Origin: Ruania suaedae
GTDB taxonomy: Bacteria > Actinomycetota > Actinomycetes > Actinomycetales > Beutenbergiaceae
DNA: 64,000 nucleotides
NCBI RefSeq assembly: GCF_021049265.1
Contig: NZ_CP088018.1
Span: 1,054,001 to 1,118,000 of the forward strand
Direction: 5' to 3'
The translations under genes and the position numbers were made by a program. Position 1 is the stretch's first letter, and each line of letters starts with the position of its first letter. The notes beneath the pieces were generated by a model. That model did not search any database. It worked only from the letters and a program-made list of their open reading frames with translations, and was not told the DNA's origin. Positions 16,658 to 28,818 of this stretch are shown here, piece after piece.

Positions 16658-17290
16658 CTACCGCAGGATCGCGACCAGCAGCCCGTCCCCGACCGGCAGC
16701 AGGCTCGGAAGTACCCGCTCGTCCTCGCGCAGCCGGCGGCCGAGCTCGCGCATGGCCACCGTCTGCTCGTCGCGGCGCGCCGGGTCGGCGACCCGGTCGT
16801 GCCACAGGGCGTCGGTGACGGCGAGCACGCCGCCGGGTCGCAGCATCCGGATCGCCTGGTCGGCGTCGTCCCCGGCCTCGGCCGGATCGCCGTCGACGAC
16901 CACCATGTCGTAGGCGGAGTCGGCCAGCCGGGGGAGGACGTCCAGGGCGCGCCCGGAGATCGTCCGGGTCCGGGTGGACCGCACCTGCGCCGTCGCGAAC
17001 GCCTCCTTGGCGGCGCGCTGGTGCTCGACCTCGACGTCGATCGTGGTCAGGACGCCGTCGGCCACCATCCCCTCCAGCAGCCACAGGCCCGAGACCCCGG
17101 TTCCGGTGCCGACCTCGGCCACGGCGTGTGCCCGGGTGGCGGCGGCGAGCATCCGCAGCGCGGCACCCGTTCCGGCAGACACGGGGGTCACCCCCAGCTC
17201 CTCGGCGCGGCCGCGGGCGAGCTGGATGGACTCGGTCTCCACGAGGTAGTCCTCGGTGTAGGCCCAGCTCTGGGCCTTGTCGGCAGCGAT
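16658..17290 (-). CDS. O-methyltransferase (Rv1220c-like), probable AUC start codon
   Basis: SAM-dependent O-methyltransferase of about 210 residues. The SAM-binding motif is [18 protein letters not shown], followed by DIEVE-type acidic residues ([11 protein letters not shown]) and VVVDGDP; it resembles mycobacterial Rv1220c over its whole length. Homology continues upstream of the first usable GTG (17242) through [12 protein letters not shown] to an ATC at 17290, and a strong GGAGG (17297-17301 on the minus strand) sits 6 nt before that ATC. No ATG, GTG or TTG exists upstream in frame. I therefore place the start at ATC 17290. The conservative alternative is GTG 17242 (194 residues), which has a weaker GAGGA. 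It is divergent from sigE, the order also seen at the mycobacterial sigE locus. Confidence 0.85.
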
Positions 17291-17437
17291 GGTAGGCCTC
17301 CAGGGGTGGCGCGCGATGATGTCCGGCGGGTGGGTGCTGCGATCGTAGCGCCGTCGGGCCGCCGTGCCGGGGAGGCGCTCAGGTGGCCGAGCCCTCCCAG
17401 GAAGTTCTCAGGTTCCCCGCGTAGGATTGCCCTTGCC

Positions 17438-18094
17438 ATGGACACCACCTCGCCGACCGCTTCCGACCGACCGGCCGCCGCTGTGCCCGAGGTGCCTGCT
17501 CGCCCGGAGGGGACGTGGCAGCCACCCACCTGGGAGGCGATCGTGCGTGAGAACACCGACCGGGTCTACCGGCTGGCGTACCGGCTGACGGGCAACCGGG
17601 CCGACGCCGAGGATCTCACCCAGGAGGTCTTCGTGCGGGTGTTCCGCTCGTTGCACTCCTACGCCCCGGGCACGTTCGAGGGGTGGCTGCACCGCATCAC
17701 CACGAACCTCTTCCTGGACGGGCAGCGACGCAAGAAGCGGATCCGCTTCGACGTGCTCGGCCCGGCCGCCGAACGGGTGCCTGCCGCCGGCGACTCCGGC
17801 TCACCCGAGCGGCGCTATGAGCACGACAACCTCGACGCCGACGTCCAGGCAGCGCTGGACGCGATGAAGCCCCAGTACCGGGCCGCCGTCGTGCTGTGCG
17901 ACATCGAAGGCCTCTCCTACGAGGAGATCGCTGCGGTGCTCGACGTCTCGATGGGCACGGTGCGCTCGCGCATCCATCGCGGCCGGGCGCAGCTGCGCAA
18001 GTCCCTGGCCCACCGGGCGCCGGCCTCCCGGGCTGTGCCGGACCTGCCGGACGTGCCGGCCGCCCCCGTCCTGCGACCGGAGGGCGCGCTGTGA
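17438..18094 (+). CDS. sigE: RNA polymerase ECF sigma factor SigE
   Basis: Group IV sigma factor (218 residues) for envelope stress. Region 2 is clear ([30 protein letters not shown], then [19 protein letters not shown]). Region 4 ends with an HTH ([29 protein letters not shown]). The N-terminal extension ([13 protein letters not shown]) is typical of actinobacterial SigE. The GTG of the anti-sigma gene overlaps its TGA. Upstream, GGAAG at 17400-17404 with CGTAG 15 nt further on could be an ECF-type promoter, and TAGGAT (17422-17427) could be a housekeeping -10; neither is certain. Its divergence from the O-methyltransferase and the downstream HtrA protease match the mycobacterial sigE locus. 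Confidence 0.95.
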
Positions 18095-18966
18095 GCCATC
18101 TCGGACCGCTCGTCTCGCCGTTCGTGGACGGTCAGCTTCCGCCGGCGCGGGCGGCACGGTTGCAGCAGCACCTGTCCGACTGCGCGCCCTGCCGCGCGCA
18201 GGTCGAGGCCGAGCGTGCCTGCCGCGACACTGCGCGGGCTGCGCGGGCGGTCCAGGCGAACCCGGACCTGACCGAACGGCTCCTTGCGTTGGGCGTCGTG
18301 GGCGACACGACGGGCGTGCCCGCGAGCGCGGGGGAGGTGGAGCGGGCCGTGCGCGGCACCCGGCTCCGGGTGCTCTCGGGCGCCGTCGCCTCCGTCGGGG
18401 TGTTCGTGGTCGCGCTCTTCGTGCTCGGCGGTCAGCAGCGCTCGGTCGACGACCTCACGGCCATGGTGCCCCAGCTGAAGGAGCCGGCATCGCTGGCCGG
18501 CGGTCACGCCGTCGGATCGGTGGGTGCCACCGAGCCAGGCCGCGAGGATCTCTCGGGAACCGTGCTCGAGTGGATGTCAGCGGCTGGCTGGTCCACGCCG
18601 GACCGCCTGCCCGCGGGGATGCGGGTGGAGCACATCACGGTCATCGACGAGGCCGAGGCGGGTGCGCCGGTGCTGCAGCTCGATCTCGCCGGCGATGCCG
18701 GGGTCGTGCATCTGACCGAGCAACACGGGGTGCTCGACCCGGCGATGACGGCCGCGCTCGAACCCGTGCAGATCAGCGGCTACGAGGTCTATCAGGTCGC
18801 CGAGAACTGGTGGGTGGCCCAGTGCGGGGGGTCGGTCGTGGCGATCTCCTCCGGCGACGACCCGGCCGCGGCTCACGCGCTGCTCGCCCGGATGGGTGAG
18901 GGCACCTCACCCGGGGTCGTGGACCGGCTCACGAACGGTCTCCAGGTCCTGCTGGCCGGATCGTGA
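18091..18966 (+). CDS. SigE-associated zinc-binding anti-sigma factor (RseA-like)
   Basis: A 291-residue membrane-anchored anti-sigma factor that should hold SigE inactive. The N-terminal zinc anti-sigma motif HxxxCxxC is His27, Cys31, Cys34 (HLSDCAPC). One transmembrane helix follows near residues 92-113 ([19 protein letters not shown]), then a 170-residue extracytoplasmic domain that could sense envelope damage. GTG 18091 overlaps the sigE stop by four bases and its own stop overlaps the HtrA GTG, so sigma, anti-sigma and protease are made in one coupled operon. It is longer than mycobacterial RseA because of the outer domain. Release by oxidation or proteolysis is inferred from the family. 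Confidence 0.9.
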
Positions 18967-20201
18967 GCTGGCACCCGCCCGACCCGCCACGGGGCCACGT
19001 CGCATCGACGGGCCCCGCGCTCACGCCTGACCACTCAGGCGGCACGGCCGGTGTCCCGGGCGCGCCCATGACGCCCAGTCTGCCGCTGCGCTCGGAACCG
19101 GCGCGCCGCCGCCGGCGCGGGGTCCCGGGCGGACTGGTCGCGCTGCTGATGCTGCTCAGCCTGCTCGTGGGTCTGATCGCCGGCGCCGTCGGCGGCTCCC
19201 GGCTACTGGACCCGCCGGACGTCAGCCTGCCCGCGCCCAGCCCGGGAGCGCCTGCCCCACCGGACCAGGACCTCGCCGAGGGATCGGTGGCCGGGATCGC
19301 GGCGGACGTGCTGCCCAGCACCGTCTACATCCGTACCCGGACCGGCGGCGCCGGCGGGTCGGGCAGTGGCTTCGTGCTGCGCGAGGACGGGTACATCGTG
19401 ACCAACCACCACGTGATCGCCGGTGCGGAACAGGTGGCGGTCGTCCTGGCCGACGGCAACCAGGTCGAGGCTGAGATCGTCGGGTCCACGGTCGACTACG
19501 ACCTGGCCGTGCTGAAGGTCGACCTCGACGGGTTGGAGCCGCTCGTGCTGGGCGACTCCGACGCGCTCCGGGTGGGCGACCCGGTCGTGGCGATCGGTGC
19601 TCCCCTCGGCCTCGAGGGCACCGTGACATCCGGGATCGTCAGCGCGATGAATCGTCCGGTGAGCGTGCCGGGGGAGGAGGGTGCCTCCTTCCTCAACGCC
19701 ATCCAGACCGACGCCGCGATCAACCCGGGGAACTCCGGCGGGCCGCTGGTCAACACCGCCGGTGAGGTGATCGGAGTCAACTCGGCGATCGCCTCCACCG
19801 CCAGCACCCCGACATCGGCCGGCAGTGTCGGTCTCGGCTTCGCGATCCCGAGCACCCAGGTGCGCCGGACGGCCGAGCAGCTGATCGAGACCGGGACCGC
19901 GACCTACCCGATCATCGGAGCCACCCTGGACGCCCAGTACCAGGGCGAGGGGGTGCAGATCCTCACCGACGAGGCCGACGCCGACCTGCCGCCGCTTGTC
20001 CCCGGCGGGCCGGCCGCACAGGCCGGGCTCGAGCCGGGCGACATCATCCTGGCGATCGACGGGGAGCCCGTAACCTCCGCGGACGAGCTCATCGTGAAGA
20101 TCCGTGCGCACCCACCCGGCGAGGTCATCACCCTGACGGTGCGCGAGGACGGCGACGAGCGCCAGGTGGAGGTCACGCTCGGAGAGCAGGCCAGCGAGTG
20201 A
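18963..20201 (+). CDS. HtrA/DegP-type serine protease with PDZ domain
   Basis: Membrane-anchored quality-control protease (412 residues) acting outside the cytoplasmic membrane. A Pro/Arg-rich cytoplasmic N-terminus precedes one transmembrane helix (residues about 57-77). The trypsin-like domain has the full triad: His150 in VTNHHVIAG, Asp180 in DYDLAVL, and Ser258 in NPGNSGGPL. A single PDZ domain ends the protein (AQAGLEPGDIILAIDGEPV). Its GTG overlaps the anti-sigma stop. The mycobacterial counterpart beside sigE takes part in the envelope-stress response, so a role in SigE signalling or clearing misfolded proteins is likely. Confidence 0.95.
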   Translation: MSWHPPDPPRGHVASTGPALTPDHSGGTAGVPGAPMTPSLPLRSEPARRRRRGVPGGLVALLMLLSLLVGLIAGAVGGSRLLDPPDVSLPAPSPGAPAPPDQDLAEGSVAGIAADVLPSTVYIRTRTGGAGGSGSGFVLREDGYIVTNHHVIAGAEQVAVVLADGNQVEAEIVGSTVDYDLAVLKVDLDGLEPLVLGDSDALRVGDPVVAIGAPLGLEGTVTSGIVSAMNRPVSVPGEEGASFLNAIQTDAAINPGNSGGPLVNTAGEVIGVNSAIASTASTPTSAGSVGLGFAIPSTQVRRTAEQLIETGTATYPIIGATLDAQYQGEGVQILTDEADADLPPLVPGGPAAQAGLEPGDIILAIDGEPVTSADELIVKIRAHPPGEVITLTVREDGDERQVEVTLGEQASE

Positions 20202-27341: not shown

Positions 27342-28184
27342 GTGCACATCGACCTCCACGCGCACTCACGCGTGTCCGACGGGACCTCCACGCCGACCGA
27401 GCTCATGGTCGAGGCCGCCGCCGCCGGCCTCGACGTGGTGGCACTGACCGACCACGACAGCACCGCCGGCTGGGACGAGGCAGCCGAGGCAGTACCGGGC
27501 ACGAGGGTGGCGTTGCTACGGGGAGCGGAGATCTCCTGCACCGCCGGGGGCATCAGCGTGCACCTGCTCGCCTACCTGCACGACCCCGACCATGCGGGGC
27601 TGACCGCCGAGCTGGAACGGTCCCGGATCTCGCGGGACGGGCGGGCGCGGGCGATGGTGGAGCTTCTCGCCGAGGACTACGACCTGTCCTGGGACGACGT
27701 GGTCGCGCAGGCCGGCTCGGGCGCCACGCTCGGCCGGCCGCACATCGCCGACGCGCTGGTCGCGGCCGGGGTGGTGCCCGACCGGACGGCGGCGTTCGCG
27801 TCCATCCTGGCGCCGTCCAGCCGGTACTACGTGCGCTATCACGCACCGGACGCGGTGGACGCGGTGCGGTTGGTGCGCGAGGCGGGAGGGGTGCCCGTCT
27901 TCGCCCACCCGCGCGCGAGCGCGCGCGGCCGGGTCGTGGCCGACACGGTGGTGCAGCAGATGGCCGACGCCGGTCTGGCCGGCCTGGAGGTCGCGCACCG
28001 GGACCATACCGACGATCAGCGCGAGCAGCTGCGCCGCCTCGCCGGCGATCTCGGGCTCTTCGTCACCGGATCGAGCGACTACCACGGCGTGGGCAAACCG
28101 AACCGACTCGGGGAGGAGACCACCGACCGCGAGGTGCTCGAGACGATCGAGGAGCAGGGGCGGCTCGCCGTGGTTCGTCCGTGA
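27342..28184 (+). CDS. PHP-domain phosphoesterase
   Basis: Metal-dependent phosphoesterase of about 280 residues with the four PHP motifs: HIDLHAHS at the N-terminus, ALTDHDST, HPRA in the second half, and TGSSDYHG. Characterised relatives hydrolyse 3',5'-bisphosphonucleotides (pAp) or act as RNase AM; the substrate here is not known. The family normally begins at the first motif, so GTG 27342 (VHIDLH) is preferred over ATG 27285, which lies in the divergent pepP promoter. MarC follows 16 bases downstream. Confidence 0.9.
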   Translation: MHIDLHAHSRVSDGTSTPTELMVEAAAAGLDVVALTDHDSTAGWDEAAEAVPGTRVALLRGAEISCTAGGISVHLLAYLHDPDHAGLTAELERSRISRDGRARAMVELLAEDYDLSWDDVVAQAGSGATLGRPHIADALVAAGVVPDRTAAFASILAPSSRYYVRYHAPDAVDAVRLVREAGGVPVFAHPRASARGRVVADTVVQQMADAGLAGLEVAHRDHTDDQREQLRRLAGDLGLFVTGSSDYHGVGKPNRLGEETTDREVLETIEEQGRLAVVRP

Positions 28185-28200
28185 GCGCGAGGACCACCCG

Positions 28201-28818
28201 GTGAGCGCCGTTCTCGACGGCACTCTCTTCGCCACGACGTTCCTGACCCTGTTCGTCATCATGGACCCGCCGGGCACCGTGCCGGTGTTCCTGGCGCTGA
28301 CCTCCACCATGACCGCCAAGCAGCGGGCCAGGGCCGCGCTGCAGGCGGTGAGCGTCGCGTTCGGCGTGGTCGTGGCGTTCATGCTGTTCGGCCGGCACCT
28401 GCTGGACTTCCTGAACATTTCGGTACCGGCGCTGCAGGCCTCGGGCGGGTTGTTGCTCCTGCTGGTGGCGTTGGACCTGCTCACGGGCAAGACCGAGGAG
28501 CCCACGCCGTCGGGCAAGGTGAACGTGGCGCTGGTGCCGCTCGGGACGCCGCTGCTCGCGGGCCCCGGTGCCATCGTGGCGGCGATGCTGGCCGTGCAGG
28601 GCTCGGAGGGCAGCGTGCCCGAGTGGGTGGCGATCGTGGCCGCCATCGTGGCGGTGCACCTGTGCCTGTTCCTGGCGATGCGCTTCGCCGGGGTCATCCA
28701 CCGGGTGCTGGGCGAGGGCTGGACGATCCTGGTGACCCGCATCGCCGGCCTGCTGCTTGCCGCCATCGCGGTGCAGCTGATCGCCGATGCGGTGCGGGCC
28801 TTCGTACTCGCCGGCTGA
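28201..28818 (+). CDS. MarC family integral membrane protein
   Basis: A 205-residue protein with six hydrophobic segments and the MarC signatures: TLFVIMDPPGTVPVFLALT in helix 1-2, ASGGLLLLLVALDLL, and the second-half repeat PLGTPLLAGPGAIVAAML. Once thought to confer multiple antibiotic resistance, the family has no proven transport activity. GTG 28201 lies 16 bases after the PHP stop. The convergent DEAD-box helicase ends three bases beyond its stop, leaving no room for a separate terminator. Confidence 0.9.
   Translation: MSAVLDGTLFATTFLTLFVIMDPPGTVPVFLALTSTMTAKQRARAALQAVSVAFGVVVAFMLFGRHLLDFLNISVPALQASGGLLLLLVALDLLTGKTEEPTPSGKVNVALVPLGTPLLAGPGAIVAAMLAVQGSEGSVPEWVAIVAAIVAVHLCLFLAMRFAGVIHRVLGEGWTILVTRIAGLLLAAIAVQLIADAVRAFVLAG

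Follow-up and report, generated by a model that had tools for sequence, protein, structure and literature searches.

The window, a 64,000-nt stretch of Ruania suaedae DNA (contig NZ_CP088018.1, positions 1,054,001 to 1,118,000), carries on its minus strand a gene for a predicted O-methyltransferase, next to which a sigE-type ECF sigma factor gene is transcribed divergently and leads into genes for an anti-sigma-type zinc-finger protein and an HtrA-like protease (Table 1). The methyltransferase matches the Pfam profile PF01596 with E 2.2e-25 (89.6 bits against a cut-off of 22) and M. tuberculosis Rv1220c (PDB 5x7f) with E 5.1e-54 over residues 8-208, and is by this similarity an Rv1220c orthologue and a predicted O-methyltransferase. 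We rejected the tRNA wobble methyltransferase TrmR/YrrM as its function, as the matches to 5zw3 (3e-8) and 8k1f (1.3e-10) are far weaker than that to Rv1220c (7.8e-72). A divergent ECF gene likewise lies beside 163 of 181 full-length orthologous loci, counting the one in the window.

Table 1. Features at the methyltransferase locus, in window positions, and orthologous loci with two candidate start sites
Feature	Position	Strand	Basis or remark
O-methyltransferase gene, predicted AUC to stop (Methyltransf_3, Rv1220c orthologue)	16658..17290	-	Pfam PF01596; PDB 5x7f
First in-frame canonical start codon, GTG	17240..17242	-	within conserved region, itself not conserved; judged not to be the start
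Predicted AUC start codon of the O-methyltransferase gene	17288..17290	-	sequence; ATC conserved, aligned with ATG/GTG of relatives
Shine-Dalgarno core GGAGG	17297..17301	-	6 nt before AUC; duplex energy -9.3 kcal/mol
Putative -10 element TACGAT	17342..17347	-	sequence
In-frame stop TGA closing the methyltransferase frame upstream	17408..17410	-	
sigE-type ECF sigma factor, divergent neighbour	17438..18094	+	Sigma70_r2, Sigma70_r4_2
Anti-sigma-type zinc-finger protein (zf-HC2)	18091..18966	+	
HtrA-like protease (Trypsin_2, PDZ)	18963..20201	+	
Streptomyces-like loci with two candidate sites			L151, L153, L307, L308, L309, L311, L315, L322, L325, L327, L328, L329, L371, L378

The earlier note had placed the probable start of this gene at an ATC, 6 nt after a strong GGAGG, in a frame devoid of ATG, GTG and TTG upstream of GTG 17242, and with a conserved N-terminal segment ahead of that GTG. 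All of these details hold: the spacer between GGAGG and ATC spans 17296-17291 on the minus strand, no ATG, GTG or TTG lies in the frame from the upstream TGA (17410-17408) to GTG 17242, and the segment just ahead of the GTG is conserved among orthologues, with residues 8 onward of the window's protein aligning to the solved Rv1220c chain. The putative -10 element would give the methyltransferase mRNA a leader of about 45 nt, and orthologous loci that pair a Shine-Dalgarno (SD) sequence with AUC or AUU (together AUH) usually have a TANNNT about 25-60 nt upstream. Initiation at GTG 17242, the earliest standard start of the frame, would shorten the protein by 16 residues and remove conserved residues, some of which the Rv1220c chain also contains; orthologues do not begin at this position, where aligned relatives read GTC or ACC, and a coding signal (score 11.9 in the window start scan) precedes the codon, making this start scarcely credible. 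Among 50 candidate genes in the window, the methyltransferase was the only one with coding signal ahead of its first canonical codon as well as an SD-led AUC. Two others had a coding signal above 4 in that position, at 10-735, which runs off the window edge, and at 28174-28815, where it was weak (score 4.6), and neither had an SD-led AUH.

We observed ATC at the start position in all 8 genomes of the window's genus and, following an SD, in 17 of 24 genomes of its family (f1, which includes Serinibacter, as the named locus L240 and L028 have the same start context), with the remaining seven, all of other genera, carrying ATG either there or up to four codons farther upstream. Of the 46 family codes sampled in the class, 26 include AUH loci, as do 51 of the 115 genus codes, in agreement with the AUC start first proposed from the window alone. 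The alternative offered with that proposal, an error in sequencing or an ATG mutated to ATC not long ago, would need just one base change, but is refuted by this conservation and retains a negligible probability.

The codons found at the aligned position are those expected of a start, and this comparison does not presuppose initiation there; the same independence holds for the ATT preference of a Streptomyces-like genus and for the upstream frames free of canonical codons, both given below. In 96 order-level loci, the column seven codons before a conserved SW (column -7) contains ATC 55 times, ATG 16 times, GTG five times and other codons 20 times, and in none of them GTC, CTC, GTT, CTT, GTA, CTA or CTG, codons that do turn up at 10 of the 11 remaining positions between -12 and -1. 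Drift of an internal isoleucine codon would lead to valine and leucine codons and not to methionine and GTG, so that the exchange of ATC for ATG or GTG, and never for the listed valine and leucine codons, forms a start-codon signature. Ahead of the SD, the orthologues show no sequence conservation. In the window's family, the SD, the AUC and codons 9-12 (17250-17330, minus strand) are able to fold into a stem, with no covariation; we rejected a start-site hairpin, which single folds of family leaders had hinted at around the AUC, as the alignment of its 9 pairs held no compensatory change.

To classify start sites more widely, we combined these genus and family genomes with an order survey that had matches in 310 of 396 genomes (60 further upstream regions and 12 automatic loci read), a class survey with matches in 367 of 394 (40 fetched regions and 28 automatic loci read), 80 loci of a named collection, a distant-family set of 20 genomes, and a Streptomyces-like genus in which all 31 genomes matched, 30 of them with the N-terminus. 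The latter genus (family f37, genus g126) is probably Streptomyces. Fetched loci came mostly from the top of score rankings and are thus a non-random sample. Of the 309 loci entered for classification, 286 were kept; the other 23 were too short or duplicated another locus over 120 nt. An SD was called where the duplex energy was at or below -7 kcal/mol with an SD core 5-14 nt upstream, and a leaderless start where a TANNNT ended 5-10 nt before a canonical codon. The SD rule also flags 81 of 1127 internal isoleucine codons of orthologues (7%), which means that isolated AUH calls in distant families probably include false ones, and the leaderless rule flags 4 of 2290 internal ATG, GTG or TTG codons and 20 of 1335 that lie farther upstream, whatever their frame.

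Under these fixed rules, the 286 loci comprised 152 SD-AUH, 66 leaderless, 28 SD-canonical, 19 mixed and 21 unclear starts, which, once mixed loci were resolved in favour of the stronger SD, became 169 SD-led AUC/AUU, 66 leaderless AUG/GUG, 30 SD-led AUG/GUG and 21 unclear. GGAGG or AGGAG lies 5-6 nt before the AUH in 144 of the 152 SD-AUH loci, and 139 of them have no canonical codon at all from -21 to -3. These data bear on the possibility that the isoleucine codon is internal and the true start lies farther upstream, whether it is canonical, unrecognised or linked to this frame through a frameshift. Some orthologues do have in-frame upstream canonical codons, such as the TTG or GTG near a -10 element at 14 mixed Streptomyces-like loci, but half of the AUH loci with a known upstream stop (79 of 158) hold no ATG, GTG or TTG between the in-frame stop and the AUH, the window has no canonical start upstream of 17290, the region before the SD lacks conservation as described above, and other clades have ATG or GTG in the same column. 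We therefore consider an internal isoleucine highly improbable, and the AUC well supported as the start codon by comparison of sequences.

The start type has been exchanged repeatedly, the AUC alternating with AUU, AUG and GUG. A FastTree tree of 163 of the 286 loci, of which 154 were labelled (98 AUH, 42 leaderless and 14 SD-canonical) and from which 22 Streptomyces-like loci and all short stretches were left out, needs 17 or more switches, in whichever direction, between AUH and the other states; its supports are low. The AUH is not indispensable, given the 30 SD-led AUG/GUG and 66 leaderless-looking loci among the 286. In the Streptomyces-like genus the start codon is ATT in 28 and ATC in 2 of 30 genomes, as against 1 ATT, 92 ATC and 6 ATA among 99 internal isoleucine codons (Fisher 2.7e-23 for ATT enrichment over 29 distinct labelled loci, species not being independent). 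In most ATG/GTG orthologues, scored as leaderless (L063, L064, L067, L087, L126, L145, L265 and 59 others), a TANNNT precedes the start by 7-9 nt, and inside Nocardioides the AUC/AUU and leaderless types alternate. A phylum search matched 35 of 198 genomes, 17 inside this class and 18 outside it; since the latter are distant and each of 13 outgroup loci inspected has ATG or GTG in the stretch compared, we claim the AUH trait for the class only.

Control genes scored in the same genomes set the methyltransferase start beside a familiar case. The start of infC was ATC after an SD in every one of 24 family genomes and 30 class genomes (54 of 54 jointly; L280-L303 and L334-L363). At these 54 loci, rpmI starts with ATG in all 52 cases found and rplT with GTG in 40, ATG in 12 and TTG in 1 of 53 found, and neither ever starts with AUC or AUU. 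The median SD duplex energy was -10.3 kcal/mol at AUH methyltransferase loci (n=170, selected at or below -7 kcal/mol), compared with -6.35 for rpmI, -7.8 for rplT and -8.25 kcal/mol for infC. At 14 other PF01596 loci of the same family, which are paralogues, the 60 codons ahead of the matched region contain no SD-led AUH, and canonical codons are present upstream.

To our knowledge, very few bacterial genes keep a non-canonical start by selection, infC being the standard one. infC, which encodes IF3, starts with AUU, AUC or AUA and is autoregulated by IF3. The methyltransferase resembles it in having a conserved AUH start behind an SD, in the very genomes where infC itself has AUC, making a link to initiation control, as the earlier note suggested by analogy with infC, plausible. 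It differs in that its product has no known role in initiation through which a feedback loop could close, and in that its codon has been exchanged repeatedly, whereas the infC codon is kept in all genomes tested. A second parallel is S. coelicolor sigR, for which excerpts of one study (PMC5472188) describe a GTC start behind AGGAGGTG, an ATC start for Streptomyces infC, a lowering of SigR by IF3 overproduction and a raising of SigR by IF3 fidelity mutants, along with misannotated starts for sigR in all and infC in most Streptomyces species. Like the methyltransferase, sigR is an actinomycete gene with a non-canonical start behind an extensive SD; unlike it, the codon is GTC and, according to that study, is not evidenced outside Streptomyces, and the IF3 effect is experimental where ours is inferred (PMC5472188). 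According to excerpts of PMC13009471, initiation and yield in S. aureus are lowered at conserved AUU and AUA starts that follow an extended SD; there, ccpN (AUA, in S. aureus and B. subtilis) and cvfC1 (AUU, in S. aureus) share a conserved non-canonical start and strong SD with the methyltransferase but belong to Firmicutes and were measured by initiation profiling and reporters, whereas the methyltransferase start is predicted from sequence. Rv1220c is the orthologous enzyme (E 5.1e-54), yet orthologues of its probable genus (family f22, genus g111, probably Mycobacterium) were scored as leaderless ATG or unclear and not AUH. PMC9094748 offers general remarks on rare start codons, and Rv1220c is named in four papers, PMC3993263 among them; of the papers listed by full-text searches that leave subscription journals mostly outside, none reported a non-canonical start for this methyltransferase gene in its title or abstract opening.

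Taken together, we favour a model, to which we give a probability of about three in four, in which translation of the methyltransferase begins at AUC 17290 and the conserved pairing of a weak codon with a strong SD acts as a brake, keeping synthesis low and dependent on IF3. Ordinary initiator tRNA would decode the AUC, placing formyl-methionine at position 1, with the strong SD holding the initiation complex at the site and the weak codon keeping the yield low. As IF3 rejects AUC and AUU, synthesis would depend on IF3 as for infC and Streptomyces sigR, an analogy drawn from the codon class, and the enzyme would presumably need such control. The non-canonical start is thus probably a deliberate translational brake that ordinary gene-finding rules miss, and the methyltransferase would be a class-wide addition to the infC and sigR kind, with a non-canonical start, a strong SD, low translation and probable sensitivity to IF3.

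The AUC might instead do nothing but fix a low, constant amount of enzyme, as in E. coli pcnB, with IF3 varying too little to regulate. The AUU of pcnB is called translationally limited in a title cited in PMC13009471, and repeated switching of the start type would suit a mild need for low expression, but an AUG with a weak SD would cut the yield as easily, yet the SDs at AUH loci are strong; such a dosage limit is possible, though we think it distinctly less than an even bet. Beyond the brake itself, we tentatively entertain a wider reading, in which selection maintains not AUC as such but an initiation site that IF3 disfavours, reached either through an SD-led AUC/AUU or through a leaderless AUG/GUG, with SD-led AUG/GUG as the state selected against. 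On that view the methyltransferase would, across the class, share with infC an IF3 regulon of actinomycetes whose expression goes up as IF3 or free 30S subunits become scarce, one conceivable trigger being stress relayed by the neighbouring sigE. Leaderless translation is reported to be inhibited by IF3, although low IF3 was stimulating or required in some in vitro work (excerpts of PMC9031893 and PMC4633059), and leaderless transcripts are put at 21% in S. coelicolor (PMC4895711) and nearly one-quarter in mycobacteria (PMC4633059), and leaderless genes at more than 20% in Actinobacteria (PMC3160421). Our 66 of 286 (23%) is near this usual fifth to quarter, so that the leaderless share by itself proves nothing, and the striking point is only the scarcity of ordinary SD-led AUG/GUG starts (30) beside SD-led AUH (169).

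Start callers restricted to ATG, GTG and TTG are bound to put the N-terminus of this methyltransferase in the wrong place, and its retention of AUC or AUU in 26 of 46 sampled family codes makes it a natural case for asking whether IF3 control extends beyond infC. More such genes could be sought by the same sequence test, namely a strong SD, an AUH and its alignment with AUG or GUG in sister clades. The 14 two-site loci of the Streptomyces-like genus (Table 1) combine a TTG or GTG 6 nt after a TANNNT with a second site ten codons farther on, an SD-led ATT. Other members of the genus lack the first of these two codons, so the pair may represent either a dual start or an annotation trap.
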